From Acidimicrobiales bacterium (GTDB lineage Bacteria; Actinomycetota; Acidimicrobiia; Acidimicrobiales; VFJN01): a DNA stretch of 64,000 nt. Under the pieces are notes generated by a model, which was given only the letters and a program-made list of their open reading frames with translations, made no database searches and was not told where the DNA came from. Positions within the stretch are counted from its first letter, which is position 1, and every line of letters begins with the position of its first letter. Both the position numbers and the translations under genes were made by a program. The DNA lies in assembly GCA_035316325.1 (NCBI GenBank), contig DATHJB010000011.1:1-64000 (forward strand). Reading direction: 5' to 3'. Shown here piece after piece: positions 5,507 to 46,702 of this stretch.

Positions 5507-7710
5507 TCGTCCTCCTCGGGGGGTCGGAGGTCGACCGGGGAATCGGCGATCGCACGTCCGGCACGTTGGCTGGCCTGGAACTGCGACAGCATCGAGCGGA
5601 CCGCCTCGCGGTCGAGCGCCTCTGCCGGTCGGTTGTCGGCGTTGACGTCCCGGATGTCGCGAGGGTCGGGTCGGTCGGGGTGGCGGCGCAGGGCCGCGGC
5701 GAGGCCGGCGCCGGGGACGCGCCGCACCAGCCCGTCCAGCGGGGTCGCCGGCTCCGGGTCGGGGGCGTCGGTCGACGGCTCGGGCGACGGCGGGTTCTCG
5801 AGCGTTGCCGGAGCCGGGGCCGCGGCCTCGGGCGTCAGCCGGGCGGCAGGCTCGGGTGCGGGTGGGTGCGGGGGCTCCACCACCAGTCCCCGGGCCAGCA
5901 GCGACGTGGCGTCGACCGACGTCGGCCGGGCCGGCTCGGCGAAGGGGCCTCGGGCGAGCAGGGGCGGCGTGGCGGCGTAGGGCTCCGGGGGTGGCGGGGG
6001 CGGAGGAGGCGGAGGTGGGTCGGGCAGCGCCGGCAGCTCCCGTGGAGCGGGCGGCTCGGCGAGCCCCACCGGGTCGAGCACGGGGGGCGGGGCGGCGACC
6101 GGGAACCGCACGTCGTCGGGCGCGGGCGGCGCCGCCCACGCCGGCGAGACGGGCGCGACCGGTGCCACCGGGAACGGGGACGGGGCGACCGGGGCCCGGG
6201 ACGGGGCAGGGGCGGCCGGGGACGGAGCAGCCGGGGACGGAGCAGCCGGGGCCGGAGCGACGGGGGCAGCCCCGAGCGAGGCGACCGCGGCGACCGGCGC
6301 CAGCTCGCCCGCCGAGACGAAGGCCGGCGCGAAGGTCGGCGGCGCCGGGACCTCGGTCGGTGCGCCGAACGGCGACGGCGTCACGGTCTCGACCGGCCGC
6401 TCGGTCACCAGCTGGTGGGGCAACGTCACCAGCGCGGTCAGGCCGCCGCCGGGCGTCGGCGCCACCCGCACGTCGATGTCGTAGCGCCGGGCCAGCCGGC
6501 TGACCACGTGGAACCCGAGCGTCGAGCGCCGCATGTCGACCTCGCGGGGCTCGGACAGCACCCCGTTGGCCTCCGCCAGGTCGGCGTCCGACATGCCGAT
6601 GCCGGTGTCCTCGATGCTGAGCATGAACTGCGACCAGCCGGACGGCGCCAGGTGGCTCCGCACCCGCACGACGGAGCCCGGCGGCGAGAAGGTGGTGGCG
6701 TTCTCGATGAGCTCGGCGAGCAGGTGCGCCAGGTCGGCGACCGCCCGCCCGGCCACCTCGATGTGGTCGTTGACCAGCACGTCGACCCGGCCGTAGTCCT
6801 CCACCTCGGCGGCCGCGGCGCGCACCACCTCGCTGAGGGGCATGGGCCGGCCCCACAGGCGGGGCGGGTCGTCGCCCGACAGCACCAGCAGCGACTCGGC
6901 GTTGCGGCGGATGCGGGTGGCCAGGTGGTCGAGCTGGAACAGCTCCGAGAGCGCCTCGGGCTCCCGCTCGCGCTGCTCCAGCTCGGCGATGAGCGCCAAC
7001 TGGCGGTTGAGCAGCGACTGGTTGCGGCGGGCCAGGTTGACCAGCAGGTCCGACATCGTGCGGCGCTGCAGCGCCTCGGCCTGGGCGGCGGCGACCTCGT
7101 TGGCGCCGAGGTCGGCCAGCAGACCGCTGTTGCGCTGCTGCACCATCTCGGTGTGCTTCCAGAAGATGACCACGCCGACGCACGCCGCCAGCACCGCCAC
7201 GCCGTGGATGATCGCCCACAGCCACGGCCGGTTCTGGGCCGCGTAGTGGTTGTACATCGCCGACGAATCCATGACGCTGCCGATGCCGTGGGACAGCACG
7301 GTGAAGATCACGTTCCAGAGGAACGGCACCCAGTCCTGGTAGAGGGCGATGAGCCCGATCAGGATGAAGAAGTGGAAGTGCGCCTCGATCGTGCCGCCCG
7401 ACATGTGCACGAGCACCGACGAGCAGAACACCAGGCCCGCGGTGGCGAAGAAGGCGGCGAAGCGCCGGTTGTGCGCCAGGCGGGCGAACACCAGGCACGC
7501 CGCCGGGGTCGTGACCTCGAGCGCGGAGTGGCCGACGCCGTAGCCCTGCGCCACGCCGAAGGCGAACAGCGCCGGCACGTGGAGGCCGAGGATCCAGCAC
7601 AGCAGGAGGTGCCGACGGTGGAACGTCTCGGCATCGAGGAGGTTGCCGCGCGGCAAGTAGCCGCGAAGTGTCGCCACCAAGCCTGGACCGCCAGAGTCCC
7701 CATGCCCCAT
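5503..7710 (-). CDS. cvnA: Conservon sensor histidine kinase-like protein CvnA
   Basis: 735 residues. Five or six hydrophobic helices occupy residues ~28-190, including a His-rich stretch VHMSGGTIEAHFHFF. A coiled coil/dimerisation segment follows (~195-290), then an ATPase domain with N-box LIENATTFSPPGS, G1 EDTGIGMSD and a G2-like STLGFHVVSRLARR (~330-450). About 230 residues of Ala/Pro-rich low complexity separate this from a short conserved C-terminal helix (SMLSQFQASQRAGR). No phospho-acceptor H-box is obvious, as is usual for this family. It is the first gene of the conservon; CACGTTCCGTG (7728-7738) lies just upstream as a small palindrome. Confidence 0.88.
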   Translation of the reverse strand: MGHGDSGGPGLVATLRGYLPRGNLLDAETFHRRHLLLCWILGLHVPALFAFGVAQGYGVGHSALEVTTPAACLVFARLAHNRRFAAFFATAGLVFCSSVLVHMSGGTIEAHFHFFILIGLIALYQDWVPFLWNVIFTVLSHGIGSVMDSSAMYNHYAAQNRPWLWAIIHGVAVLAACVGVVIFWKHTEMVQQRNSGLLADLGANEVAAAQAEALQRRTMSDLLVNLARRNQSLLNRQLALIAELEQREREPEALSELFQLDHLATRIRRNAESLLVLSGDDPPRLWGRPMPLSEVVRAAAAEVEDYGRVDVLVNDHIEVAGRAVADLAHLLAELIENATTFSPPGSVVRVRSHLAPSGWSQFMLSIEDTGIGMSDADLAEANGVLSEPREVDMRRSTLGFHVVSRLARRYDIDVRVAPTPGGGLTALVTLPHQLVTERPVETVTPSPFGAPTEVPAPPTFAPAFVSAGELAPVAAVASLGAAPVAPAPAAPSPAAPSPAAPAPSRAPVAPSPFPVAPVAPVSPAWAAPPAPDDVRFPVAAPPPVLDPVGLAEPPAPRELPALPDPPPPPPPPPPPEPYAATPPLLARGPFAEPARPTSVDATSLLARGLVVEPPHPPAPEPAARLTPEAAAPAPATLENPPSPEPSTDAPDPEPATPLDGLVRRVPGAGLAAALRRHPDRPDPRDIRDVNADNRPAEALDREAVRSMLSQFQASQRAGRAIADSPVDLRPPEEDE

Positions 7711-8050: not shown

Positions 8051-8123
8051 CCAGCGTGAAGATCACGAAGGAGTGGTCGGAGCCGAAAGGCCCCGGCCAC
8101 TTCTTCGCGTTTAACGTCCGGGC

Positions 8124-8957
8124 ATGACGAGGGGGACCCTGGAGGGCGCGCGTGCGGTGGTGACCGGCGGCGCGTCGGGCATCGGACGGGCGGTGTGCGA
8201 GCGGTTCGCGGCCGAGGGCGCGCGGGTGGCGATCCTCGACCGCAACGCCGACGGCGCGCAGGAGGTGGCCGCGGCGATCGGCGGCGCAGCCTTCACCGTC
8301 GACGTGCGCGACGCCGCCGCGGTCGACGCTGCCACGGCCGCGGCCGTCGAGGCGCTGGGTGGGCTGTCGATCCTGGTCACCAACGCCGGGCTGAGCAGCC
8401 TGTCCTTGGTGCACGAGACCGACCCCCGGCAGTTCGAGCGCCTGGTGCAGGTGAACCTCCTGGGCACGTTCCACGCCATGCGGGCGGCGCTGCCCCACAT
8501 CATGGCGAACCCGGGGGGCGGCGTGATCGTCAACAACGCGTCGGGCAGCGCCACCCGTCCCACCTACGGCGAGCTGGCGTACTCGTCGGCCAAGGCCGGC
8601 GTCGTGGCGCTGACCCGGGGCGCGGCCCAGGAGTACGGGCCGACGATCCGGGTGAACAGCGTGTCGCCGGGCATCATCCGCACGCCGATGTCGGAGCCGA
8701 TGTTCGCCCTCGACGGTGCGCTCGACCCCGCGTGGGAGGCGACGCCGCTGGGTCGGGCGGGTACGGCCGACGAGGTGGCCGACGTGATCCTGTTCCTGGC
8801 GAGCGACCAGAGCCGCTACGTCACCGGCCAGGACCTGGTGGTCGACGGCGGCATCGGCCTGGCCCAACCGGGGATCACCACCACCCTGCGCAACTTCGTG
8901 GAGATGCTGCGATCGCCCGCGCCCTCGCCGGGGAGCGGTGACATACCGACGACATGA
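8124..8957 (+). CDS. Short-chain dehydrogenase/reductase (SDR family)
   Basis: 277 residues, a classical SDR. The cofactor motif TGGASGIG is at residues 14-21, an acidic Asp39 after strand 2 (AILDRN) suggests NAD(H) preference, NAG is at 87-89, and the catalytic residues are Asn111-region, Ser140, Tyr153 and Lys157 (YSSAK). The family-typical end VTGQDLVVDGGIGL is present. About 30 extra C-terminal residues follow. The substrate is unknown. The stop overlaps the start of the next small gene in ATGA (8954-8957), so the two are probably translated together. Confidence 0.9.
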   Translation: MTRGTLEGARAVVTGGASGIGRAVCERFAAEGARVAILDRNADGAQEVAAAIGGAAFTVDVRDAAAVDAATAAAVEALGGLSILVTNAGLSSLSLVHETDPRQFERLVQVNLLGTFHAMRAALPHIMANPGGGVIVNNASGSATRPTYGELAYSSAKAGVVALTRGAAQEYGPTIRVNSVSPGIIRTPMSEPMFALDGALDPAWEATPLGRAGTADEVADVILFLASDQSRYVTGQDLVVDGGIGLAQPGITTTLRNFVEMLRSPAPSPGSGDIPTT

Positions 8958-31818: not shown

Positions 31819-31862
31819 GGGGGCTTCCCCGATGCCGCCCGGGGCAGGGTCGCCGTAGCTTG
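31819..31862 (+). promoter_or_regulatory. Shared promoter-like motif, copy 1 (upstream of the first IniB-like gene)
   Basis: GGGGGCTTCCCCGATG (31819-31834) and CGTAGCTTG (31854-31862), 19 bases apart. The same two boxes recur in front of both other IniB-like genes and nowhere else that I saw in the window. The second box ends 45 bases before the GTG start. The arrangement suits a promoter recognised by an alternative sigma factor, or an activator site plus -10. Confidence 0.6.
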
Positions 31863-31907: not shown

Positions 31908-32549
31908 GTGGGCAAGCCCTTGCTCGATGTGCTGCGAGATGTGGTGTTGGACCCGGCTGAACAGGCCGCGTTCACGCACGACCCCTCGTCCTACCTGGAG
32001 CAGTACGGCTACGGGGATGTCGCGCCCGACGACCTGTCGGAGGCGTTCGGCCTGGTGGCCGACACCATGCCTCCCGACGTCGCCCAGGCGGTGGCCGCCA
32101 CGGCACCGGCTTCGAGCGTCCCCCCGTCGCCGGTCGACGACCTGGACGACGACGTCGAGGGCGGCGCCTTCGGCGACGTGACCCAGGACTTCGACGCGGT
32201 CGCCGACCCGGTCGACGCCCTGGACGCCGACCTCGACGACGACGGCGACTTCGGCACCGGTGAGGTGTCGGTGCTCGACGTCGACGACGACGCCGCGTTC
32301 GGCGAGGGCTTCGAGACCGAGTCCCTCGGCACCCCCGAGTCGCCCGACGGGCCCGACGGCTTCGGCTCCCCCTCCTTCGAGGAGGCCGACTTCGGGAACG
32401 CCACGTTCACCCCCGAGGCATCCGAAGGCCCCGACGACCTGGGCGACTACGACGACGGCGTCGACGACGTGGACGGCTTCGACGCCGACGACCCCGGCGA
32501 CCTCCCCGACGACCCCGGCGAATTCCTCGACGACATCGGCTCGTTCTGA
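31908..32549 (+). CDS. IniB-like acidic protein, short paralog
   Basis: 213 residues from GTG 31908, preceded by GGAGG. The N-terminal ~55 residues (LLDVLRDVVLDPAEQAAFTHDPSSYLEQYG...DDLSEAF) follow the pattern of an IniB N-terminal domain: a short helix, F-x-x-(D/N)P, a Gly-centred turn, then helices. The rest is extremely acidic (Asp/Glu with Gly, Pro, Phe) and has no Lys or Arg after Arg10. No signal peptide or membrane segment. It lacks the Asn/Asp/Gly repeat region found in the next two paralogs. A perfect hairpin follows. Confidence 0.7.
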   Translation: MGKPLLDVLRDVVLDPAEQAAFTHDPSSYLEQYGYGDVAPDDLSEAFGLVADTMPPDVAQAVAATAPASSVPPSPVDDLDDDVEGGAFGDVTQDFDAVADPVDALDADLDDDGDFGTGEVSVLDVDDDAAFGEGFETESLGTPESPDGPDGFGSPSFEEADFGNATFTPEASEGPDDLGDYDDGVDDVDGFDADDPGDLPDDPGEFLDDIGSF

Positions 32550-32572
32550 TCCCACCGCCAGGTGAGCACCGC

Positions 32573-32595
32573 AGCCCGGGGCCCAGCCCCGGGCT
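32573..32595 (+). terminator. Hairpin after the first IniB-like gene
   Basis: AGCCCGGGGC (32573-32582) and GCCCCGGGCT (32586-32595) form a perfect 10 bp stem with a three-base loop, 23 bases after the stop codon. TGTTGC follows rather than a T-tract. Likely terminator or attenuator, since the next paralog has its own promoter-like motif. The remaining intergenic sequence (32596-32713) contains a CG-alternating stretch and no gene. Confidence 0.65.
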
Positions 32596-32713
32596 GTTGC
32601 GCGCCCGCCGCGCGCGCGACCGCGTACTGACGCCGTAAGGACTACTGTTCCCCCTGGCTAGGCGGGTCCCCCAGGCGGTGTGCACTTCCCCTACGGGGCC
32701 ACTGAAACGTGAC

Positions 32714-32756
32714 GGGGCGATCCCCGATGGCGGCTTCCGGGACCTGTCGTAGCTTG
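32714..32756 (+). promoter_or_regulatory. Shared promoter-like motif, copy 2 (upstream of the second IniB-like gene)
   Basis: GGGGCGATCCCCGATG (32714-32729) and CGTAGCTTG (32748-32756), separated by 18 bases; the first box contains the inverted repeat GGGG-CGAT-CCCC. It ends 50 bases before the ATG at 32807. Identical first box to copy 3 and near-identical to copy 1. Confidence 0.65.
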
Positions 32757-32806
32757 CCCCATAGGTCATCCGACGGGCGGGTGACAGGAACCAGGAGCTG
32801 CGGAAG

Positions 32807-33982
32807 ATGGCTGTCAATATCGATGCATTCAGCGGATGGCTCGGCGGGCTGTTCGGGTCTGAGGACAACGACACGCTGAACGAGTTCAACAACAACCCCG
32901 AGGGCGCGCTGGCCGAGGCCGGCTTCGGCGACGCCACGGCGGTCGACGTGACCCAGGCGATGAACCGCCTGGCCGAGACCAACCAGGGCAACCAGTCGTT
33001 CACCTCGCAGGGTGGCGCGGCCAACTTCGCCGGTAGCGGCGTCGTGAACCTGCCCCCTCCGCCTCCGGCCTACGAGGCCTACGAGGCGTCCGGTGACGGC
33101 GGCGGCCTCACCGGTGCGATCGATTCGATCAACCACTACACCAGCGTCGTCAACGAGACCGACCAGTACTACCAGGACAACGACACCACCACGATCAACG
33201 ACCAGGACACCAACGTCGACAACTCGGTCAACCAGGAGATCACCGCCTTCGGCGATGTGAACCAGGACTTCGACAACGACGTGGTGACCGGCGACGAGAA
33301 CGCCCTCGGCGGCGACGGCTCGCAGGTCAACTCGGGTGACGGTGCGGTCCAGGTGGGCGGCAGCGTGAGCGACTCGACCATCGCCACCGGCGACGTCGAG
33401 GGCTCGGTCACCGGCGACGTCAGCGGCTCGGTCGTTGGCGACGGCAACGAGGCCATCGTGGGCAGCGACGTGGGCGCCGCCAGCTTCGGCGAGGGCGACG
33501 CCATCAACGCCGAGAACGTGGCCCAGGACGGCTCCACGATCATCGACGACACCTTCGGTGACGTGAACGCCAACGTCGGCGACGGCACCCAGACGGTCGT
33601 GGACGACTCGCTCATCAGCGAGTCGGCGGTCGGCGAGGGCAACACGGTCCAGTCGAACGACGTGGCCATCGAGGCCGACGACGGCGCTGCTGTCGCCTTC
33701 GGTGACGGGTCCTCGGCCGAGGGCAGCGAGGTCGAGTCGACCAACATCGGCGGCACCACCCAGATCGCCGACGACGACGCCACCCAGCTCGGCAACACCG
33801 ACAACTCGGTGAACGACAGCTTCGACACAGTCGACAGCTTCAACACCGACGCCTCGGTGAACGACAGCTTCGACACCGAGGACAGCTTCGACACGGTCGA
33901 CAGCTTCGACACGGTGGACAGCTTCAACCAGGACAACGACACGACCACCGAGACGGTCGACGACGACCTGATCGACCTCTAG
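32807..33982 (+). CDS. IniB-like protein with predicted beta-solenoid repeats
   Basis: 391 residues. Residues 1-~58 are the IniB N-terminal domain (FSGWLGGLFG, LNEFNNNPEGALAEAGFGDAT). A Pro-rich hinge (NLPPPPPAYEAYEA) leads to ~260 residues of Asn/Asp/Gly/Ser/Thr/Val-rich sequence with alternating hydrophobics (SDSTIATGDVEGSVTGDV-type rungs) suggesting a right- or left-handed beta-solenoid. The tail repeats DSFDTV-like units and ends DDDLIDL. The whole protein has one Arg (residue 54), no Lys and no Cys. No signal peptide. Mycobacterial IniB precedes the dynamins IniA and IniC, as here. Molecular function unknown. Confidence 0.8.
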   Translation: MAVNIDAFSGWLGGLFGSEDNDTLNEFNNNPEGALAEAGFGDATAVDVTQAMNRLAETNQGNQSFTSQGGAANFAGSGVVNLPPPPPAYEAYEASGDGGGLTGAIDSINHYTSVVNETDQYYQDNDTTTINDQDTNVDNSVNQEITAFGDVNQDFDNDVVTGDENALGGDGSQVNSGDGAVQVGGSVSDSTIATGDVEGSVTGDVSGSVVGDGNEAIVGSDVGAASFGEGDAINAENVAQDGSTIIDDTFGDVNANVGDGTQTVVDDSLISESAVGEGNTVQSNDVAIEADDGAAVAFGDGSSAEGSEVESTNIGGTTQIADDDATQLGNTDNSVNDSFDTVDSFNTDASVNDSFDTEDSFDTVDSFDTVDSFNQDNDTTTETVDDDLIDL

Positions 33983-34008
33983 TCGGTCGCAGAGCACAAC
34001 CCAGTCAG

Positions 34009-34048
34009 GCGAGAGATCAGGCCCCGGTGCTCACCGGGGCCCTCTCGC
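34009..34048 (+). terminator. Bulged hairpin after the second IniB-like gene
   Basis: GGCCCCGGT (34020-34028) pairs with ACCGGGGCC (34033-34041) around a GCTC loop, and the flanks GCGAGAG (34009-34015) and CTCTCGC (34042-34048) extend the stem across a four-base bulge: 16 bp in all. It starts 26 bases after the stop codon. Probable terminator or attenuator. Confidence 0.65.
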
Positions 34049-34103
34049 GTTCCCCGGGAACCCCCGGACCCCCTCGATCCCCCACGGGCACCTCGGTGGC
34101 AAA

Positions 34104-34146
34104 GGGGCGATCCCCGATGCCCGTGACCAGGGCAAGGCGTAGGTTG
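34104..34146 (+). promoter_or_regulatory. Shared promoter-like motif, copy 3 (upstream of the third IniB-like gene)
   Basis: GGGGCGATCCCCGATG (34104-34119) and CGTAGGTTG (34138-34146), again 18 bases apart, ending 55 bases before the ATG at 34202. Sequence between the boxes differs among the copies, which argues that the two boxes are under selection rather than simply left over from duplication. Confidence 0.65.
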
Positions 34147-34201
34147 ACCACCAACGAGGGCTCCCGAGCGGGCGGAGCTCACAGAACAGGAGACCTTTGC
34201 G

Positions 34202-35422
34202 ATGAGCGTGTTCAACTTCCTCTTCAACCTCTTCGACGACGACGAGGAGCTCACGGAGTACGCCAACGACCCCGGCGGCTACACGGAAGAGCACCTCCCC
34301 GAGGGCATGACGAGCGCCGAGTTCCTCGAGGGCGTCCAGGAAGTGTGTGGGGCCCTGCCGCCCGAGCAGGCGGCGGTGCTGCGCACGGCCTACGGGCTGG
34401 ATGCCCCCGAGGGCTACGACGGCCCCGCCTACGACGCTCCTCAGCTGCCGCCGCCCCCTCCGCCGCAGCAGCCGGGCGAGTCCGACGGCGACTACCTCGT
34501 GCGGCAGGTCAACCACTACACCGAGGTCGTCAACGTCACCAACCAGCACTTCGAGGACAACGACACCACCACGATCAACGACCAGGACACCAACATCGAC
34601 AACTCCGTGAACCAGGACATCACGGCGTTCGGTGACGTGAACCAGGACTTCGACAACGACGTGGTGACCGGCGACGAGAACGCCCTCGGCGGCGACGACT
34701 CCCAGGTCAACTCGGGTGACGAGGCCGTCCAGGTGGGCGGCGACGTGTACGACTCGACCATCGCCACCGGCGACGTCGGGGGCTCGGTCACCGGCGACGT
34801 GTACGACTCGGTGGTCGGCGACGACAACGAGGCCATCGTGGGCAGCAACGTGGGCGCGGCGGCCTTCGGCGAGGGCGACGCCATCAACGCCGAGAACGTG
34901 GCCCAGGGCGGCAGCACGATCGTCGACGGCCCCGAGGGCCCCGACGGCCCGATCCTGCGGACGGCGATCGTCGACCCCGGCTACGAGCCCGAGGGCGGCA
35001 CCGTCAACGCCAACGTCGGCGACGGTACCCAGACGGTGGTGAGCGACTCGATCGTCAGCGAGTCCGCGGTCGGCGAGGGCAACACGGTCCAGTCGAACGA
35101 CGTGGCCATCGACGCCGACGACGGCGCCGCTGTCGCCTACGGCGAGGGCTCCTCGGCCGAGGGCAGCTCGGTCGAGTCGTACAACGAGGGCGGCACCACC
35201 CAGATCGCCGACGACGGCGCCGAGCAGCTGGGCAACACCGACAACTCGATCAACGACAGCTTCGACATCGAGGGCAGCGGCAACCTCGACCAGTCGATCA
35301 ACGACAGCTTCGACGTCGAGGACAGCTTCGACACCGTCGACAGCTTCGACACCGTCAACAGCGGCAACCAGGACAACGACACGACCACCACGGTCGAGGA
35401 CGACGACCTGATCGACCTCTGA
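34202..35422 (+). CDS. IniB-like protein with predicted beta-solenoid repeats, third paralog
   Basis: 406 residues, a clear paralog of the preceding gene. N-terminal domain FNFLFNLFDDDEELTEYANDP; Pro-rich hinge QLPPPPPPQQPG; then the same repeat region with long identical stretches (DNDTTTINDQDTN, NALGGD, VQSNDVAIDADDGAAVAYG) and a tail of DSFDxxD units ending EDDDLIDL. A ~22-residue insertion (GPEGPDGPILRTAIVDPGYE) interrupts the solenoid relative to its paralog. It has three Arg, no Lys and one Cys. No export signal. A perfect 13 bp hairpin follows, then the dynamin pair. Confidence 0.8.
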   Translation: MSVFNFLFNLFDDDEELTEYANDPGGYTEEHLPEGMTSAEFLEGVQEVCGALPPEQAAVLRTAYGLDAPEGYDGPAYDAPQLPPPPPPQQPGESDGDYLVRQVNHYTEVVNVTNQHFEDNDTTTINDQDTNIDNSVNQDITAFGDVNQDFDNDVVTGDENALGGDDSQVNSGDEAVQVGGDVYDSTIATGDVGGSVTGDVYDSVVGDDNEAIVGSNVGAAAFGEGDAINAENVAQGGSTIVDGPEGPDGPILRTAIVDPGYEPEGGTVNANVGDGTQTVVSDSIVSESAVGEGNTVQSNDVAIDADDGAAVAYGEGSSAEGSSVESYNEGGTTQIADDGAEQLGNTDNSINDSFDIEGSGNLDQSINDSFDVEDSFDTVDSFDTVNSGNQDNDTTTTVEDDDLIDL

Positions 35423-35441
35423 GACACCTGATCCCCCAGTC

Positions 35442-35474
35442 GAGGCCCGGTCCTTCCCCCCAGGACCGGGCCTC
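35442..35474 (+). terminator. Hairpin between the third IniB-like gene and iniA
   Basis: GAGGCCCGGTCCT (35442-35454) pairs perfectly with AGGACCGGGCCTC (35462-35474), 13 bp with a seven-base C-rich loop, 20 bases after the stop. The dynamin gene starts 134 bases further on, so this could partially terminate and set the ratio of IniB-like protein to GTPase. The rest of the gap shows no further copy of the shared promoter motif, only a related GCGGCGATCCGC palindrome at about 35503-35514. Confidence 0.7.
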
Positions 35475-35607
35475 GCCGCGGAAGGCCGCAAGTTCATGCC
35501 TGCGGCGATCCGCGTTACCTTGGATGGGAACGGTCGACGCAGATTCCGCCACGTCTCCGGGCCGTCCGCACAGCAGGCAGAATCCGTGTCGAAGGGAGCA
35601 GGGAGGC

Positions 35608-37494
35608 ATGGCGGGAGACCCCAACGCTGCCGCGCGATCCGCAGCGGTACAGAAGGCCCTATCCGTGGTCAACCTCGGTGGCCAGGCCGCGTCCGCGTAC
35701 AAGCGACCCGATCTGGCATCCCGGCTGTCCACCACCGCCAAGCGCCTCGTCGACCCCTCGTTCCACGTGTTCGTCGTCGGCGAGTTCAAGCAGGGCAAGT
35801 CGTCGCTGGTGAACGCCCTGCTCAACGCCCCCGTGTGCCCTGTCGACGACGACATCGCCACCTCGGCGCCCACCGCCGTGCGCTACGGCGACGAGGCCTC
35901 GGCGGCGGTGCTGCTCAAGCCGCCGGAGGACGACGACCCGTCCAGCATCGACATCGACGAGCGCAACGAGCCCATCCGCGAGCAGATCCCCATCGAGCAG
36001 GTGGCCCAGTACGTCACCGAGGCCGCCAACCCCTCCAACGAGCGCCGCGTGCAGGCCGTCGAGGTGTCGATCCCCCGCAAGCTGCTGGCCGACGGGCTGG
36101 TCATCGTCGACACCCCGGGCGTCGGCGGGCTCGGCTCGGCCCACAGCGCGGCCACCATCGGCGCCCTGCCCATGGCCGACGCGGTGCTGTTCATATCGGA
36201 CGCCAGCCAGGAGTTCACCGCCCCCGAGCTGGAGTTCCTGCAGACCGCCCGGCGCATGTGCCCCAACGTGATCTGCGTGCTCACGAAGGTCGACTTCTAC
36301 CCGGCGTGGCGCAAGATCCGCGACCTCGACACCGAGCACCTGGCCTCGCGGAAGATCAACGTGCCGCTGATGTGCGTGTCGTCGGCCCTGCGCATCCACG
36401 CCCTGCGCACCAACGACCGCGACCTCAACCAGGAGTCCGGGTTCCCCCAGCTGGTGGGCTACCTCCAGAACGAGATCGCCGCCAACGCCGAGAAGATCAC
36501 CATCAAGGCCGCGGCCAGCGACGTCCTCTCGGTGACCACCCTGCTCACCACGCAGTTCAAGAACGAGCAGCAGGCGCTGGCCAACCCGGAGAACGCCCAG
36601 CAGGTGGTCGGCAACCTCACCGAGCTCCAGGACCGGCTCAACCGCCTGCGGGGCGGCGCCTCCAAGTGGCAGACGGGCCTGTCCGACGGGATCGTCGACC
36701 TGCAGACCGACCTCGACCACGACCTGCGCTCCCGGCTCCGCCAGGTCACCAAGCAGGCCGACGACGCCATCGACGCCAGCGACCCCGCCGAGACCTGGGA
36801 CGACTTCCAGGCCTGGCTCTACCGCCGGGTCGCCGAGGACATCGTCCACACGTACACGTTCCTGCACGGGCGGTCCGACGAGCTGGCGTTCCGGGTGGCG
36901 GAGCACTTCGGCGAGGACAGCGGCGACCTGGCCGTGCAGCTCGACCTGATCAATCCCACCGACATCGTCGCCGCCATCGACGCCAACACCGACATCCAGG
37001 CCCAGAAGATGGGCATGGGCGCCCAGGGCCTGGCCGCCATGCGCGGCAGCTACGGCGGCATGTTGATGTTCGGCATGCTGGGCAACATGGCCGGCCTGGC
37101 GCTGGCCAACCCGGCGACGATCGTGATCGGCCTGTTCATGGGGCGCAAGGCGCTGCGCGACGAGAAGGAGCGCCAGCTCCAGATGCGCCGCAACCAGGCC
37201 AAGCAGGCGCACCGCAAGTACACCGACGAGGTGGGCTTCGTGGTCGGGAAGGACTCCCGCGACACGCTGCGACGCATCCAGCGCCAGCTGCGCGACTACT
37301 TCGCGGCCCGCGCCGAGGAGCTGCACAAGTCGACCCAGGACGCCTTGGCGGCGGCCCAGAAGGCCGTCAAGTCCGACCAGGCCACCCGCCAGCAGCGGCT
37401 GCGGGACGTCAACGCCGAGCTGGAGCGGATCGCCGTGCTACGCAAGAAGGCCATAGAGCTCTCCCCCGACCTGGCCAAGGCGGGTGTCAAGTGA
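35608..37494 (+). CDS. iniA: Dynamin-like GTPase, IniA type
   Basis: 628 residues from ATG 35608 (AGGGAGCAGGGAGG upstream). GTPase domain: P-loop GEFKQGKSS at residues 58-66, switch Thr in DIATSAPTAVRYG, G3 IVDTPGVGGLG (~residue 168) and G4 LTKVD (~229). Long helical stalk regions follow, and a hydrophobic Gly/Met-rich segment (~residues 475-515) that should insert in membranes, then a charged coiled-coil end. Length and order match mycobacterial IniA (640 residues), a membrane-remodelling dynamin induced by cell-wall drugs. GTGA overlap with iniC. Confidence 0.9.
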   Translation: MAGDPNAAARSAAVQKALSVVNLGGQAASAYKRPDLASRLSTTAKRLVDPSFHVFVVGEFKQGKSSLVNALLNAPVCPVDDDIATSAPTAVRYGDEASAAVLLKPPEDDDPSSIDIDERNEPIREQIPIEQVAQYVTEAANPSNERRVQAVEVSIPRKLLADGLVIVDTPGVGGLGSAHSAATIGALPMADAVLFISDASQEFTAPELEFLQTARRMCPNVICVLTKVDFYPAWRKIRDLDTEHLASRKINVPLMCVSSALRIHALRTNDRDLNQESGFPQLVGYLQNEIAANAEKITIKAAASDVLSVTTLLTTQFKNEQQALANPENAQQVVGNLTELQDRLNRLRGGASKWQTGLSDGIVDLQTDLDHDLRSRLRQVTKQADDAIDASDPAETWDDFQAWLYRRVAEDIVHTYTFLHGRSDELAFRVAEHFGEDSGDLAVQLDLINPTDIVAAIDANTDIQAQKMGMGAQGLAAMRGSYGGMLMFGMLGNMAGLALANPATIVIGLFMGRKALRDEKERQLQMRRNQAKQAHRKYTDEVGFVVGKDSRDTLRRIQRQLRDYFAARAEELHKSTQDALAAAQKAVKSDQATRQQRLRDVNAELERIAVLRKKAIELSPDLAKAGVK

Positions 37495-38984
37495 GCGTCA
37501 CGCAGAGCGGCGAGCGCCACATCCCGCTGCTGGAGAGCGTGCGGGTGCTGCTGACCCGCGCCCACGAGTCGTACCGGGGCACGCCGGGTGACGGGCGCAT
37601 CACCGCCGTGCTCGACCGCCTCGACGAACCGCTGCGGGTGGCGATCGCCGGCAAGGTGAAGGCCGGCAAGTCGACCCTCCTGAACGCCCTGGTGGGCGAG
37701 GAGCTGGCCCCCACCGACGCCGGCGAGTGCACCAAGATCGTCACCTGGTACCGCGACGGCATCACCTACCGGGCCACGCTGATCCCCAAGTCGGGCGACG
37801 CCCGCCAGGTGCCCTTCACCCGCGACGGCGGGGCGATCAACGTCGACCTGAACGGCGCCAACGCCGACGACATCGACAAGCTGCAGATCGAGTGGCCGTC
37901 GTCGTCGCTGCGGCAGATGACGCTGATCGACACGCCCGGCATCGCCTCGCTGTCGCAGGACGTGTCGGCCCGCACGCACGCCTTCCTGACCCCCGGCGAG
38001 GACCAGGTCACCCCCGCCGACGCCGTGCTGTACCTGATGCGGCACCTGCACTCGTCCGACATCAACTTCCTCGAGGCCTTCCACGACGAGGAGTTCTCGC
38101 AGGCCACCCCGGTGAACGCGGTGGCCGTGCTGTCGCGGGCCGACGAGGTGGGCGTGGGCCGGATCGACTCGATGGCGTCGGCCCAGCGGATCGCCTCGCG
38201 CTACCGGCTCGACCCCAAGGTGCGGCGGCTGGCGCAGACCGTGGTCCCGGTCGCAGGCCTGCTGGCCCAGTCGGGGGCGACGCTGCGGGAGGCCGAGTAC
38301 AAGGCCATCGACTCCATCGCCGGGGCCTCCCGGACCGACTCCGATCCCCTGTTCCTCTCCGCTGACCGGTTCGTGAAGGCTGAGACGGCGATCCCGCTCA
38401 CGTCGATGGAGCGGGAGCACCTGCTCGACCGCCTGGGGATGTTCGGCGTGCGGCTGGCGGTGGCGCTGATCCGCCAGGGGGCGGCGCCCAACGCCACCAC
38501 GCTGTCGAGCGAGCTGGTGCGGCGCTCGGGGCTGGTGGAGCTGCGCGACGTGCTGCTGTCGCAGTTCGCCGAGCGACGTGACGTGCTGAAGGCCCGCTCG
38601 GCGCTGCTGGCGCTGGAGGGCGTGCTGCACGAGCATCCGCTGATGGGCTCGGACCTGCTGGCGTCGGAGCTCGAGCGGATCACCTCGGGGGCGCACGAGT
38701 TCGCCGAGATCCGCCTGCTGAACGCCCTGCGGGCGGGCGGGGTGAAGGTGAAGGCCCAGGAGGCCGCCGAGATGGAGCGGGTGCTGGGCGCCGAGGGCGG
38801 TGCGCTGCACACCCGGATGGACCTGTCGCCCGAGGCCGACGTCTCCGAGCTGCGCCGGGCCCTGCAGAACGCGATCGGCCGGTGGCAACGCCGGGCCGAG
38901 TCGCCCATGTCGTCCCGCGAGGTCGCCGACGCCGCCCGGGTGCTGATCCGCACCTGCGAGGGCCTGCTCGTCAACCTGGGCTGA
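37491..38984 (+). CDS. iniC: Dynamin-like GTPase, IniC type
   Basis: 497 residues from GTG 37491, coupled to iniA. P-loop GKVKAGKST at residues 54-62, G2 region DAGECTKIVTWY, G3 LIDTPGIASL (~146) and a G4-like LSRADEVG (~210). The remainder is a helical stalk without an evident transmembrane stretch, so it may act as a heteromeric partner of the membrane-inserting IniA-type protein, as paired bacterial dynamins do. Size matches mycobacterial IniC (493 residues). Confidence 0.88.
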   Translation: MSVTQSGERHIPLLESVRVLLTRAHESYRGTPGDGRITAVLDRLDEPLRVAIAGKVKAGKSTLLNALVGEELAPTDAGECTKIVTWYRDGITYRATLIPKSGDARQVPFTRDGGAINVDLNGANADDIDKLQIEWPSSSLRQMTLIDTPGIASLSQDVSARTHAFLTPGEDQVTPADAVLYLMRHLHSSDINFLEAFHDEEFSQATPVNAVAVLSRADEVGVGRIDSMASAQRIASRYRLDPKVRRLAQTVVPVAGLLAQSGATLREAEYKAIDSIAGASRTDSDPLFLSADRFVKAETAIPLTSMEREHLLDRLGMFGVRLAVALIRQGAAPNATTLSSELVRRSGLVELRDVLLSQFAERRDVLKARSALLALEGVLHEHPLMGSDLLASELERITSGAHEFAEIRLLNALRAGGVKVKAQEAAEMERVLGAEGGALHTRMDLSPEADVSELRRALQNAIGRWQRRAESPMSSREVADAARVLIRTCEGLLVNLG

Positions 38985-40985: not shown

Positions 40986-43112
40986 TCAATTCCCGGAAAC
41001 TGGCTCCAGAGCGTCCAGCTCGGCTACCGAAGCCAGGATCTCGGGGGCCAGCCAGCGGGCCACCTCGAGGGAGTTGGCCAGGTCGACGTGCACGCCGTCG
41101 GGCCGCAGGCGCGCGTCCTCGGCCGGCGACAGGGCCGCGAAGTGGGCGCCGAAGTCGACCACCGTGGCCGACGGGTGGTCGGCGACGACGCCGGTGATCA
41201 GCTCGTTGAGCCGGTCGATGCGCTCCAGGGCGTCGGGCGGGTCCGGGTGCTCGGGCCGCGGCACCAGGGCCCGGGAGAAGTCAAGCGGCGGCGTGGTGAG
41301 CCACACGACCTTCAGGCCCTTCGCCAGCAGCGCCGACGTCGCCCCCTCGATCTCGGCCTGCAGGTAGCGGTCGTAGACGGGGTCGCCCGGGCCCCGCCAC
41401 TGGTCGTCGCCGGGGATCTTGCGGTCCATCACGTCCCACGACCCGGTGAGCAGCACCCCCACCTCCAGGTCGGGCCGCTCGTCGATCTCCCGGCCCCAGT
41501 CGCGGTCCCACTGGGGGCAGCCGGCAGGCACCGGCTGCGGCGTCCCGAGCTGGCGCCGCTCCCCGCCCCGGCCGATGCCGCAGCCCACCTGGGTGGTGTA
41601 GCCGTCACCGACCAGCATCAGCCGCTTGGTCTGCAGGCCCCACTCGCCCACCCCGGCCGCCACGGTGAGGGCGGCGGAGTCGCCGAAGAACATCACGTCG
41701 ACCGCCTCCTGCGGCACCGCCTCCCGCCGCTCCTCGATCTCCGCCTCGGCCGCGGCCACCGCCTCGGGATCGAAGCCGCCCTCGGCGTCGGCGGGGTCGT
41801 CGGCGTCGGCTCCCGCGTCGTTGCCGGCGAGCTGGTCCGCGGCGGCCTCGAACTGGTCCTGCCGGGGCGAGGCCACGCTGTCGGGGACCAGCAGCGCGGC
41901 GGCCACCACGGCGGCGACGCTCCCGAACGCCAGCACCGGCGCCCAACGCACCCGCGGCCAGCTCCCCTTTCGGATCGGCTGCTCCAGCACCAGGTAGGAC
42001 CCCGCTGCCAGCGCCAGCGTCGGCACCAGGCGCACCGCGAACAGCGCCCAGCCCCCGGGCGCCCAGCCGACCAGGTCGTCGATCCGCTGCGGGGTCAGCA
42101 CCAGGAACAGCGGCCAGTGGAACAGGTAGACGGCGTACGACACCAGGCCCAGCAGCCGCAGCGGCTCGAACGCCAGCGCCGACCGGACGGGACCGGGCAC
42201 GCAGACCGCCAGCACCAGGGCGCCCGATCCGAGCGCGTAGAGCAGCAGGAAGCCGTGCGACAGCGACGTCGAGCTCTGCTCGACGGTCCACCACGCCCAC
42301 GCAGATGCGGCCAGGGCTGCAAGCCCGAGGCCGCCGATCGTTCTTTGAAGGAAAACGGACGCGATGCGGTCGTTTTCCTTCAAAGAAACGACGAGGACGG
42401 CAAGGAGGGCGCCGACCAGGATCTCGCCCATGCGGACAGGGGTGGCGTAGTAGACGGTGTCGGGCGCGTCCCGCCACACGAACGTCAGCGCCGCCGAACC
42501 AGCGAGCAGGGCGACCAGCACCCCGGAGTACACCCGCCGTGACCCCTTCGCCAGCCCGAGGACACCGGCCGTGAGCAGCGGGAACAGCCAGTAGAACTGC
42601 TCCTCGATCGCCAGGCTCCAGATGTGCAGGGCCGGCGACGGCGCCGCGAACAGCTCGCCGTAGGAGCGGTCCTCCCACAGGAAGTGCCAGTTGGCCACCT
42701 GGAGGGCCGACGCCACCACGTCGCCCGGCAGCTCCGGTCCCCACAGGTCGTCGACCAGCACCAGCGACACCAGCAGCGCCCCCAGCGTCACCGCCGAGGC
42801 CGGCAGCAGGCGCCGCATCCGCCGCGACCAGAACGCGGTCAGCCCGATGCGACCCGTCCGGGCCTGCTCGCCCAGCAGCAGCGAGGTGATGAGGAACCCG
42901 CTGAGCGTGAAGAACGTGGAGACGCCCAGGTAGCCGCCCTGGGCCCAGGGGAAGCCGCTGTGGAACAGCAGCACCGCACCCACGGCGAGGCCGCGGATGC
43001 CGTCGAGCGCCGGGTTGTAGTCGAGCCCCACCTTCTGCGACGAGCGCGCGCCGTCCTCGGGCGCGGGATCTTCGAGGGCGCCCGAGGCCTCGTCGGGCAG
43101 GGTCGCCGTCAC
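40986..43112 (-). CDS. Membrane acyltransferase with C-terminal SGNH domain (OafA/YrhL-like)
   Basis: 708 residues from GTG 43112, overlapping the upstream paralog's stop (GTGA). Ten or so transmembrane helices in residues ~40-430: acyltransferase_3 motifs NPALDGIRGLAVGAVLLFHSG, STFFTLSGFLITSLLL, IWSLAIEEQFYWLFPL and YAVYLFHWPLFL. After an acidic linker rich in Asp/Ala (~465-490) there is an SGNH-type domain with FFGDSAALTVAAG, WLTTPPLD and the catalytic DGVH near the end. Such enzymes O-acylate cell-surface polysaccharides or lipids. A perfect AT-rich inverted repeat sits within the coding region. Confidence 0.88.
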   Translation of the reverse strand: MTATLPDEASGALEDPAPEDGARSSQKVGLDYNPALDGIRGLAVGAVLLFHSGFPWAQGGYLGVSTFFTLSGFLITSLLLGEQARTGRIGLTAFWSRRMRRLLPASAVTLGALLVSLVLVDDLWGPELPGDVVASALQVANWHFLWEDRSYGELFAAPSPALHIWSLAIEEQFYWLFPLLTAGVLGLAKGSRRVYSGVLVALLAGSAALTFVWRDAPDTVYYATPVRMGEILVGALLAVLVVSLKENDRIASVFLQRTIGGLGLAALAASAWAWWTVEQSSTSLSHGFLLLYALGSGALVLAVCVPGPVRSALAFEPLRLLGLVSYAVYLFHWPLFLVLTPQRIDDLVGWAPGGWALFAVRLVPTLALAAGSYLVLEQPIRKGSWPRVRWAPVLAFGSVAAVVAAALLVPDSVASPRQDQFEAAADQLAGNDAGADADDPADAEGGFDPEAVAAAEAEIEERREAVPQEAVDVMFFGDSAALTVAAGVGEWGLQTKRLMLVGDGYTTQVGCGIGRGGERRQLGTPQPVPAGCPQWDRDWGREIDERPDLEVGVLLTGSWDVMDRKIPGDDQWRGPGDPVYDRYLQAEIEGATSALLAKGLKVVWLTTPPLDFSRALVPRPEHPDPPDALERIDRLNELITGVVADHPSATVVDFGAHFAALSPAEDARLRPDGVHVDLANSLEVARWLAPEILASVAELDALEPVSGN
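42341..42387. repeat. Perfect 17 bp inverted repeat inside the acyltransferase gene
   Basis: TTCTTTGAAGGAAAACG (42341-42357) and CGTTTTCCTTCAAAGAA (42371-42387) are exact inverted copies around a 13-base spacer. The arms are AT-rich in a gene that is otherwise strongly GC-biased, and they encode polar residues (SLKENDR, VFLQR) between membrane helices. This looks like an inserted palindromic element kept in frame, or an internal hairpin. Confidence 0.8.
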
Positions 43113-45229
43113 GGCGCCTGGGCAGGCTCCGAGTTGGCCGCCGCGACGATCTCCGGTCCGAGCCACTGGCCGATCTGGACCGACCCGTCGAACGTCCAGT
43201 GGACGCCGTCGGGCCGGATCCGAGCCAGCTCGTCGGGCGGCAGTTCGGCGGCGTGCGCGGCAAGGTCGACAGACACCACGCCCTCACGTTCCCCCGCCAG
43301 CTCGCGGATCATGTCGTTGTAGAGCCCCATCCGGGCCGGGTCGAACTCGGGCGGCTGCTCGTCGGGCCGCGGGTCGATCTGCGTCCAGTCGATGGCCGGG
43401 GCGGTGAGCCACACCACGGTGACACCCTCGTCGAGCAGCAGGTCGACCACGTCAGTCATCTCGGAGCGAAGGTAGTCGTCGTAGATCGGCTGGCCGATGT
43501 GCACCCACTCGCCGTCGCTGCCCGGGATCTGCCGGTTGGCGACGTCCCACGGCCCGGTCTGCACCACGGCGTAGTCCATCCGGCCGTAACGATCCCGGTT
43601 GCGGGCGATGTCCCGGTGCAGGCTCTCGCGCCACTCGTCGCAGGCGCCGCCCCGCAACCCGGCCTGGTTGCCGCGGTAGTCGACCTCGCCCTCGTCGCCG
43701 ATGCTGCAGCCGTTCTCGGCCGACCCGCCCCACAGCACCTGCACCGGCTCCGCGCTCTTGCCCCACTCGCTGAGGCCGTTGGCGGTGGTCACCATCGTCG
43801 AGTCGCCCACGACGACGCCGACCCGCGACTCGGGCTCGAGCGTCGACGGGTCGGGGCCCTCGGCCGCGTTGACGAACGACTCGAACGGGTCGGCCGGCGG
43901 CTCCGACACCCGGGGCACCACCACGGCCAACGCCAGCACGCCCACCACCCCGCCGAGCGCCAGCACCTGGGCGTTGAGCCACTTCGGCCGCTGGCCACGG
44001 CGGATCGGCTGCTCGAACCAGCGGTACGACACCGCCGCCAGCGCCAGCACCACCACCAGCCGGATGACCAGCAGCTTCCAGGTGCGGGGCTGCAGGCTGC
44101 CCGGGAAGGGCTCCAGGAGCGAGTCGACGGTGTTCTCGTCGAGGATCTTGAACAGCGGCCAGTGGAACAGGTAGACGCCGTACGACACGACGCCCAGCAG
44201 CCGCAGCGGCTCGAACGACATCACCCGCCGCACCGGGCCGTCGACGTTGGCCGACAGCACCAGCGCCGCCGAGATCACCGAGTAGCCCAGCAGCCCGCCC
44301 CAGCGCAGCGACGGGTGCGTCTGCTCGGCGAACCACCACAGCCACACCTGCACCACCAGACACACCACACCCAGCGCCGCCAACACCGGGACCAGCCGCT
44401 TGTTGCCGACGAACCAGCCCCGGGCCACCAGCGACGCCAGCAGGCCGCCCATCAGGATCTCGCCGCCCCGGATCGGCGTGGCGTAGTAGACGACGGTCGG
44501 GTTGTTGCCGTAGGCCAGCGTGAGCAGCCCGGCGCCGCCGATGAGGGCCAGCAGCACGCCGGTGTAGGCCTTCAGCGACCCCTTGAAGTACACCAGCGCA
44601 CCCGCCGTGATCAGCGGGAACAGCCAGTAGAACTGCTCCTCGATGGCGAGGCTCCAGAAGTGGAGCACCAGCGACTGGTTGTCCTGGAACAGATCGGCGT
44701 AGGCGCGGTCCTCGAAGATGAAGCGCCAGTTGGCCACGTGGAGGCCGGCGGCGAACACGTCGCCGCCCAGCTGTCGCTCCCACTGCTGGTTGGTGAAGAT
44801 CGCCGAGACCGACACCGCGGCGAGCGTCGCCGCCGAGGCCGGCAGCAGGCGCCGCAGCCGGCGGGCGTAGAAGCTGCTGAGGCCGATGCCCCCGGAGCGG
44901 GCGTGCTCGGAGAGCAGCAGCGACGTGATGAGGAAGCCGCTCAGCGTGAAGAACGTGGAGACCGCGAGGAAGCTGCCCTTGAACCAGTCGCCGGCGTAGC
45001 CGTGGTAGAGCAGCACCGAGCTGAGCGCCAGGCCCCGGATGCCGTCGAGCGCGGGGTTGTAGGCGAGGTGGGCGGGCCGCTTCGCCTCCGGCGCGGCGTC
45101 GGGCAAGGGCAGCGGGGGCGCGACGAGGGTCGCGGTGGCGGCGTTGCCGTTGTTGCGGTCGAGCTCTGCGACCTGCTCAGCGGGCCGACGGCCCGACGTT
45201 GACCCAGCCAGGGACGTCCCCTCCCCCAA
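43109..45229 (-). CDS. Membrane acyltransferase with C-terminal SGNH domain, paralog
   Basis: 706 residues if TTG 45229 is the start; no ATG or GTG is available below the divergent ccrA start, and this gives the same length as the downstream paralog. Acyltransferase_3 motifs: NPALDGIRGLALSSVLLYHG, STFFTLSGFLITSLLL, FWSLAIEEQFYWLFPL, YGVYLFHWPLFK. The SGNH part has VVVGDSTMVTTANG, VVWLTAPAIDW and RPDGVHWTF. The two paralogs are translationally coupled and probably modify the same surface polymer at different positions. Start codon uncertain. Confidence 0.85.
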   Translation of the reverse strand: MGEGTSLAGSTSGRRPAEQVAELDRNNGNAATATLVAPPLPLPDAAPEAKRPAHLAYNPALDGIRGLALSSVLLYHGYAGDWFKGSFLAVSTFFTLSGFLITSLLLSEHARSGGIGLSSFYARRLRRLLPASAATLAAVSVSAIFTNQQWERQLGGDVFAAGLHVANWRFIFEDRAYADLFQDNQSLVLHFWSLAIEEQFYWLFPLITAGALVYFKGSLKAYTGVLLALIGGAGLLTLAYGNNPTVVYYATPIRGGEILMGGLLASLVARGWFVGNKRLVPVLAALGVVCLVVQVWLWWFAEQTHPSLRWGGLLGYSVISAALVLSANVDGPVRRVMSFEPLRLLGVVSYGVYLFHWPLFKILDENTVDSLLEPFPGSLQPRTWKLLVIRLVVVLALAAVSYRWFEQPIRRGQRPKWLNAQVLALGGVVGVLALAVVVPRVSEPPADPFESFVNAAEGPDPSTLEPESRVGVVVGDSTMVTTANGLSEWGKSAEPVQVLWGGSAENGCSIGDEGEVDYRGNQAGLRGGACDEWRESLHRDIARNRDRYGRMDYAVVQTGPWDVANRQIPGSDGEWVHIGQPIYDDYLRSEMTDVVDLLLDEGVTVVWLTAPAIDWTQIDPRPDEQPPEFDPARMGLYNDMIRELAGEREGVVSVDLAAHAAELPPDELARIRPDGVHWTFDGSVQIGQWLGPEIVAAANSEPAQAP

Positions 45230-45352
45230 GCGTTTCCAGCGAAGGCTCAGGCTACGACAGCCCCACCGCCGCTTGCACGCTCTCTGTCGCCACCTGGGGC
45301 CACGTTCAGCGAGTCTGCGCTCGGAGGTAACCCAGCGGTAGCTTTCGGCCCC

Positions 45353-46702
45353 ATGGAGCAGATCCTCCAAGCCATCCAGAGCGGAGCGAGCGGCGACGAG
45401 ATCGCCGCGCTGCCCGTCCCCGAGTCGTACCGCGCCGCCCACGTCCTACGCGCCGAGCAGGAGATGTGGGAGGGCGTGGCGTCGGAGGACAAGGACCCCC
45501 GCCGGTCGCTGCACGTGTCCGACGTGCCGACGCCGGAGCTGGCGCCCGACGAGGTCTACCTGGCGGTGATGGCCAGCTCCATCAACTTCAACACGGTGTG
45601 GACGTCGATCTTCGAGCCGCTCCCCACCTTCCTGTTCCTCGACCGGCTCGCCAAGGAGTCGGTGTGGGGCGCCCGCCACAAGCAGGACTACCACGTGGTC
45701 GGCTCCGACGCCGCCGGCGTGGTGGTGCGGGTGGGTTCCGCCGTGCGCAACTGGAAGCCGGGCGACCGGGTGGTCGTGCACTGCAACTTCCTCGACGACC
45801 AGGACCCCTCGGCCCACGACGACTCCATGCTCGCCGCCAACCAGCGCATCTGGGGCTTCGAGTCGAACTTCGGCGGGCTCGCCGACCTGGCCGTGGTGAA
45901 GGCCAACCAGATCATGCCCAAACCGTCGCACCTGACGTGGGAGGAGTCGGCGGTCAGCGGGCTGTGCGCCTCCACCAGCTACCGGATGCTCGTCGGTCGT
46001 CACGCCGCCCGCATGAAGCAGGGCGACAACGTGTTCATCTGGGGCGCGACCGGAGGCATCGGTGCCTACGCCACCCAGCTGGTGCTCAACGGCGGGGGCA
46101 CCCCGGTGGGCGTGGTGTCGTCGGGCGACCGGGCCAAGCTCCTCAACGCCATGGGCTGCGAGGCCGTGATCGACCGGCGGGAGGAGGCGTACCGCTTCTG
46201 GTCCGACGAGAACACGCAGGACGAGGGCGAGTGGCGCCGGCTCGGCAAGAAGGTGCGCTCGCTGGTCGGCGACGACCCCGACATCGTGTTCGAGCACCCC
46301 GGACGGCAGACGATGGGCGCCTCGGTGTTCATCACCAAGCGGGGCGGCACGATCGTCACCTGTGCCGCCACCAGCGGCTACATGATCGAGTACGACAACC
46401 GGCACCTGTGGATGAAGCTGAAGCGCATCGTCTCGTCGCACTTCGCCAACTACCAGGAGGCGTGGGACATGAACCGGTTGATCGACAAGGGTGCGATCCA
46501 GCCGGTGATGTCGCAGGTGTTCCCGCTGACCGAGGTGGGCGCCGCGGCCGTGGCGGTCCACCGCAACGAGGCCGAGGGCAAGCTGGCCGTGCTGTGCCTG
46601 GCCCCGTCGGCCGGCGACGGCATCACCGACCCGGAGAAGCGGGCCCGCATCGGCGAGGACAAGATCACCTTGTTCCAGCGCCACGCCCGCGGCGAGCTGT
46701 AG
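45353..46702 (+). CDS. ccrA: Crotonyl-CoA carboxylase/reductase
   Basis: 449 residues, the usual length. Medium-chain dehydrogenase fold with the family-specific pieces SSINFNTVWTSIFEP, DYHVVGSDAAGVVVRVG, GDRVVVHCNFLDDQDP, NQIMPKPSHLTWEESA, the NADPH site IWGATGGIGAYATQL, VFEHPGRQTMGASVF and the C-terminal SSHFANYQEAWDMNRLI. It reductively carboxylates crotonyl-CoA to ethylmalonyl-CoA, the key step of the ethylmalonyl-CoA pathway or a source of polyketide extender units. Methylmalonyl-CoA epimerase lies 1.6 kb downstream. Confidence 0.96.
   Translation: MEQILQAIQSGASGDEIAALPVPESYRAAHVLRAEQEMWEGVASEDKDPRRSLHVSDVPTPELAPDEVYLAVMASSINFNTVWTSIFEPLPTFLFLDRLAKESVWGARHKQDYHVVGSDAAGVVVRVGSAVRNWKPGDRVVVHCNFLDDQDPSAHDDSMLAANQRIWGFESNFGGLADLAVVKANQIMPKPSHLTWEESAVSGLCASTSYRMLVGRHAARMKQGDNVFIWGATGGIGAYATQLVLNGGGTPVGVVSSGDRAKLLNAMGCEAVIDRREEAYRFWSDENTQDEGEWRRLGKKVRSLVGDDPDIVFEHPGRQTMGASVFITKRGGTIVTCAATSGYMIEYDNRHLWMKLKRIVSSHFANYQEAWDMNRLIDKGAIQPVMSQVFPLTEVGAAAVAVHRNEAEGKLAVLCLAPSAGDGITDPEKRARIGEDKITLFQRHARGEL

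Follow-up and report, generated by a model that had tools for sequence, protein, structure and literature searches.

The iniBAC-type locus

We analyzed a window of 64,000 nt from the genome of an Acidimicrobiales bacterium (contig DATHJB010000011.1, positions 1 to 64,000), "window" here meaning this whole stretch, and within it a locus of three genes for IniB-like proteins (iniB1, iniB2, and iniB3) followed by two genes for dynamin-like GTPases (iniA and iniC). In tuberculosis, iniBAC is a classic reporter of cell-wall drugs. Sequence comparison gives good support to the reading of the present locus as a divergent system of the iniBAC type. New here are a set of polyanionic IniB proteins of two types, followed across actinobacteria, and, foremost, a promoter element that precedes each of the three iniB genes. 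The coordinates and lengths of the five genes (Table 1) are as given by a first-pass annotation made from the letters of the DNA.

Table 1. Genes and candidate regulatory features of the locus (window positions).
Feature	Position	Strand	Description
iniB1	31908..32549	+	213 aa, GTG start; IniB-type head and short acidic tail, iniB*-like
iniB2	32807..33982	+	391 aa; four-helix head followed by a long, polyanionic repeat body
iniB3	34202..35422	+	406 aa; head unlike that of iniB2, body nearly identical to iniB2
iniA	35608..37494	+	628-aa dynamin-like GTPase
iniC	37491..38984	+	497-aa dynamin-like GTPase; 4-bp overlap with iniA
Promoter element of iniB1	31819..31861	+	GGGGGCTTCCCCGATG ... TAGCTT
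Promoter element of iniB2	32714..32755	+	GGGGCGATCCCCGATG ... TAGCTT; CCCCTA box upstream
Promoter element of iniB3	34104..34145	+	GGGGCGATCCCCGATG ... TAGGTT
Hairpin after iniB1	32571..32597	+	12-bp stem, without T run; region fold z = -3.56
Hairpin after iniB2	34009..34048	+	region fold z = -2.54
Hairpin between iniB3 and iniA	35441..35475	+	14-bp stem; region fold z = -4.88
Candidate separate iniA promoter	35507..35521	+	GATCCGCGTTACCTT, -10 TACCTT; weak

The two GTPases stand in the order IniA then IniC, as the first-pass annotation had noted. IniA aligns to its solved M. smegmatis counterpart (6j72) with E = 1.7e-118 over residues 26-617 of 628, which amounts to full-length homology to mycobacterial IniA; for reference, the IniA of one mycobacterial-type locus scored 1014 bits against the M. 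smegmatis protein. IniC, encoded directly downstream, is about 39% identical (38.8-39.6%, E 5e-102 to 1e-118) to the protein encoded just after iniA in mycobacterial-type loci, and 83.6% identical to IniC of G263, the closest surveyed relative. Both proteins belong to the dynamin superfamily, scoring above the curated Dynamin_N cut-off of 27 bits (IniA, 90.3 bits, E = 1.9e-25; IniC, 46 bits, E = 7.6e-12) and retaining intact GTPase motifs (GEFKQGKSS/DTPG/TKxD in IniA, with G1, G3, and G4 invariant across 11 relatives; GKVKAGKST/DTPG in IniC). Elsewhere in the genome (G000) there is a weak third Dynamin_N match (C118:36262-36363), and plasmid-borne genes for IniC-like GTPases (~32% identity) were seen in Rhodococcus and Prescottella (e.g., NZ_KF439868.1:95274-96626).

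The first-pass annotation had also proposed that three consecutive genes share an IniB-type N-terminal domain, and a profile search confirmed this similarity: IniB_NTERM (NCBIfam NF038175) matches iniB1, iniB2, and iniB3 with 27.9, 31.5, and 16.5 bits (E = 1.7e-6, 1.2e-7, and 0.0059, respectively). All three genes lie upstream of iniA, and no further IniB_NTERM match was found in the whole genome up to E = 0.1. Our own IniB profile recovered all three at E<=1e-19, which is a consistency check only, because the three genes are among its seeds. An orthologue of iniB1 is present in G263 (39.7% identity).

A promoter element upstream of the iniB genes

The element consists of GGGG-N4-CCCCGAT followed by TAnnnT 24-25 nt after the CCCC, a gap that stayed this narrow though 18-28 nt were permitted in the search. 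The strict form has exactly three matches in the 6.37-Mb genome, one before each of iniB1-3, and a reversed control pattern had none across 16 genomes. A relaxed form gave 40 matches in related loci. For 27 of these an IniB head lies no more than 150 nt downstream, against about 0.25 expected from coverage alone; of the remaining 13, at least 8 stand before iniB*-type genes or IniB genes that had escaped the profile. Direct boxes of the form [AT][TC]CCCC[TG]A are found upstream of the element, strongly strand-biased and with a spacing peak of 32-34 bp (138 boxes against 11.3+-3.2 in dinucleotide shuffles). In mycobacterial-type upstream regions, CCCCTA[AG]T boxes numbered 15 against 0.1 expected (a set of 13 regions, a few of them from other families). 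All these element and box counts are drawn from related sequences and are not independent. The element was also predictive: with its strict form, IniB-type genes overlooked by the profile were located in G265 and G197 and, with less certainty, in G040 and G004. Taken together, these patterns make it very probable that the element works as a promoter/operator for IniB-type genes.

Some other strict matches in relatives have no IniB-type gene downstream. Three further matches in G263 (C5:10095, C16:1170, and C163:25149; L201, L210, and L214) precede genes that look by eye to encode a DedA-type membrane protein, a MoxR-type ATPase, and a translation-factor-like GTPase; these may be either additional targets or chance matches. 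Another copy (L204:1501; G174 C139:14898) lies before a gene with Asp-rich DTDGDGL repeats, near a dnaK-like and an iniB*-type gene.

Since each iniB has its own element and is followed by a strong hairpin, each looks, by sequence, like a transcription unit of its own. A strong hairpin between iniB and iniA is also present in the relatives L093 and L094, and a stem of at least 9 bp was found at this position in 20 of 52 loci. The sequence GATCCGCGTTA, noticed by eye before iniA, recurs in G263 and L092, which is a weak indication. We considered iniA as a fourth box-controlled gene and did not count it as such, as GCGGCGATCCGC has a different spacing to its -10 there.

Heads and tails of the IniB-like proteins

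The locus had been described as carrying a triplicated IniB. There are indeed three IniB-like genes, but of two kinds: one is short and acidic, the others are long, and the repeat body common to iniB2 and iniB3 is missing from iniB1. Between iniB2 and iniB3, nucleotide identity is 79-93% over the body and 44-64% over the N-terminal part, a likeness of the bodies such as would be left after recent duplication or gene conversion. In the tails of iniB1, iniB2, and iniB3 (151, 329, and 344 residues) we counted 0, 0, and 2 Lys/Arg against 50, 70, and 76 Asp/Glu; iniB2 has 80 acidic residues versus a single basic one. Over 77 IniB tails the median Lys+Arg content was 1.5%, versus 12.3% in IniA, and 75 of the 77 were classed as disordered by the charge-hydropathy line. 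IniB tails are polyanionic and predicted to be disordered. Across IniBs, the head persists together with a low-complexity, basic-poor tail whose sequence varies; this suggests that the tail acts physically and not through a specific sequence.

AlphaFold2 (AF2) predicted a four-helix head in iniB2 (residues 1-61, predicted local distance difference test (pLDDT) ~78-92), and the remainder had no confident fold in two runs. A beta-solenoid body, which GDGN-type repeats had prompted us to consider, was supported by neither of the two AF2 runs (mean pLDDT 48.5 and 52, with shallow alignments) nor by a fold search, which gave no significant PDB match. We likewise do not claim a LigA-like head, for which there were weak PDB profile matches (E = 0.27 and 0.49) and a Pfam LigA match in one relative (E = 0.26), or a SonA-like head, which was non-significant in the fold search.

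Distribution of the module in actinobacteria

The survey covered 296 genomes sampled from the class, along with 80 named loci from GTDB genomes. An iniB gene lies upstream of iniA in 42 of the 48 named loci with at least 3 kb of upstream sequence (one copy in 26, two in 11, and three in 5), so dynamin pairs in relatives do adjoin such genes, as the system interpretation of the first-pass annotation demanded. iniC follows iniA in 73 of 75 named loci. Among 37 fully covered loci, 34 have a gene for an IniR-like regulator of the STAND (signal transduction ATPases with numerous domains)/LuxR type near iniA, and 32 have a dnaK-like Hsp70 gene nearby. All five parts occur together in Pseudonocardia, Actinoplanes, Nitriliruptorales, and Acidimicrobiia, as well as in Arthrobacter in a different order. 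These comparisons indicate that the gene arrangement is beyond chance and that dnaK-like Hsp70, iniB (1-3 copies), iniA, iniC, and iniR form a conserved five-part module found across the actinobacteria, Hsp70-like protein included. For mycobacteria, the iniR neighborhood and an iniB* gene before iniB have already been described, as has a dnaK-like gene near iniR in M. smegmatis (PMC5760070). In the literature searched, we found nothing useful on IniB-type proteins outside mycobacteria.

The window locus has no adjoining iniR or dnaK-like genes. Its genome has eight strong dnaK-like paralogues (C239, C147, C112, C181, C179, C103, C124, and C67; L187-L194), and as none of them adjoins an IniB head we dropped the idea that they are unrecognized components of it. 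Pseudonocardia likewise has groups of two or three IniB genes, and mycobacteria have iniB* plus iniB (PMC5760070). In Pseudonocardia thermophila (L111), two long iniB genes (6165-6965 and 8056-8853) differ little outside the C-terminus, and a short acidic iniB lies between them. Concerted evolution of the long iniB genes seems to be recurrent.

The gene neighbors of the locus within the window are housekeeping genes (topA, thiolase). Near the dynamin genes, on the minus strand (40986-45442), are two tandem membrane acyltransferase genes of the Acyl_transf_3 type, one with an SGNH domain. Membrane acyltransferases of this type are frequently linked to cell-surface modification.

A candidate regulator for the element

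An IniR orthologue is encoded in the genome at C127, full length (631 bits; the next match has 36 bits), among unrelated genes. IniR-type proteins end in a LuxR-type helix-turn-helix (HTH), and their recognition helix, S-P/A-K-T-V-E-H-H-V-A, is nearly invariant. Mycobacterial IniR is MalT-like, and in M. tuberculosis it binds directly upstream of iniBAC and controls that operon only (PMC5760070). IniR is the best candidate binder because it is a recurrent iniBAC neighbor, has a nearly invariant recognition helix, and has this precedent in M. tuberculosis; we consider it likely that the element is bound by the MalT-like activator IniR encoded at C127. The element might otherwise serve a dedicated sigma factor or a different regulator of the LuxR type, which we judge rather unlikely. 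In favor of that alternative, iniR is unlinked in this genome, and PimM-type PAS-LuxR regulators have a similar published palindrome, CTVGGGAWWTCCCBAG. However, it sits poorly with the frequency of IniR beside iniBAC in complete loci and with a recognition helix that is kept in the unlinked C127 copy and is unlike those of the other LuxR-type proteins of the same genome. Direct boxes together with a palindrome at -35 also suit a MalT-type regulator, as the MalT of Actinoplanes binds a palindrome overlapping the -35 (PMC7567727). No description of the DNA site read by IniR was found in the literature searched; the element is a concrete, mutable candidate for the IniR operator and bears on which DNA IniR reads.

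Proposed function and alternatives

The best explanation overall, in which we have reasonable confidence, is that the locus encodes an iniBAC-type membrane-remodeling module, probably for envelope stress. A role in envelope stress or membrane repair, also put forward by the first-pass annotation, is suggested by homology, and the envelope-stress reading gains support from the conserved promoter element and the presence of an IniR orthologue in the genome. IniR activated by envelope stress would cause the box-driven iniB promoters to fire. We give about even chances to a scheme in which envelope stress switches the element on and IniB comes to exceed IniA and IniC because the hairpins limit read-through; iniA-iniC may have an additional promoter of their own. 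A high IniB transcript level has been suggested by RNA-seq in M. tuberculosis (PMC5760070). By analogy with their mycobacterial counterparts, it is fairly likely that IniA and IniC would then cut or reshape the cytoplasmic membrane, leading to vesicle release or repair. IniA carries out membrane fission in vitro (PMC6715688), and, according to a review, normal vesicle release needs IniA/IniC (PMC11077946). More doubtfully, the IniB heads might dock on the dynamins or the membrane, and the acidic tails, crowded and repelling one another, might help to bend the membrane or set the spacing of dynamin assemblies.

IniB could instead be vesicle cargo or filling, or a wall-associated structural protein as in an old annotation of mycobacterial IniB, which the dynamins merely release and which gives no help in bending. 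We hold this to be unlikely as well. It fits the low-complexity, repetitive, and variable nature of the tails, and mycobacterial IniB has been likened to glycine-rich wall proteins (PMC6715688). On the other hand, no signal peptide is evident by eye in the three IniB translations, the conserved part of IniB is the small helical head, and the tail maintains its low Lys/Arg content as its sequence changes. We regard as very improbable that the locus is an anti-phage or other defense dynamin system rather than a stress-response module. While the PADLOC LeoA/LeoBC models do match IniA and IniC (E 1.5e-22 and 1e-12), these matches are at superfamily level only and much weaker than that of IniA to its M. 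smegmatis counterpart; moreover, the locus has the genes of iniBAC, arranged as in many lineages, the neighbors topA and thiolase are housekeeping genes, and IniB has no defense match.

Several observations weigh against the membrane-remodeling module as we have outlined it. None of the three heads reaches 40 bits, the curated cut-off of IniB_NTERM, and we therefore call the proteins IniB-like and not members of the curated family; the G263 protein, at 50.9 bits, is above it. iniR does not adjoin the locus. The relaxed element is present in 21 of 83 IniB upstream regions, the strict form precedes only some relatives' IniB genes, and in mycobacterial upstream regions boxes were found but not the full element. 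The hairpins are without T runs, and the stem between iniB and iniA is shorter than 9 bp in 32 of 52 loci. The proposed brush role of IniB derives from its composition, and in mycobacteria the protein is rich in Gly/Ala rather than strongly acidic. A broader proposal would join the parts: GGGG-N4-CCCCGAT plus CCCC(T/G)A boxes would be the general actinobacterial IniR operator, with a tiny regulon almost only of IniB-type genes, and IniB would be a polyanionic brush that crowds the membrane and whose diversified heads bring the dynamins onto it. As a whole we think this improbable; if true, it would make iniBAC a two-part bend-and-cut machine.

Comparison with known systems

Leo-type dynamins also belong to the dynamin superfamily and have tandem GTPase genes, but the similarity of the window proteins to them is far weaker than to IniA, and Leo systems have no IniB-type genes. 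PimM, a PAS-LuxR protein, lacks the STAND ATPase part. The sites of the LuxR-type HTH regulators Actinoplanes MalT and PimM resemble the element in being short palindromes, and that of MalT overlaps the -35 (PMC7567727), whereas the MalT site itself, TCATCC-5-GGATGA, is unlike the element.

The iniBAC of Mycobacterium shares with the window locus its gene order, a full-length IniA, IniC, IniB-type heads, and a short plus a long IniB gene, and an IniR orthologue is present in the window genome. The window locus differs in having two long IniB genes instead of one, tails that are acidic and Asp/Asn/Gly/Ser/Thr-rich where the mycobacterial ones are Gly/Ala-rich, an element and a hairpin for each iniB, an unlinked iniR, and heads below the family cut-off. 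In Pseudonocardia, unlike in the window, iniR and a dnaK-like gene flank the locus, and most loci have no strong hairpin before iniA. The gene set is nevertheless alike (e.g., L111, L143, and L153), with one short acidic and two long repeat-body IniB genes followed by iniA and iniC, and L111 also shares the near-identity of the long IniB bodies.

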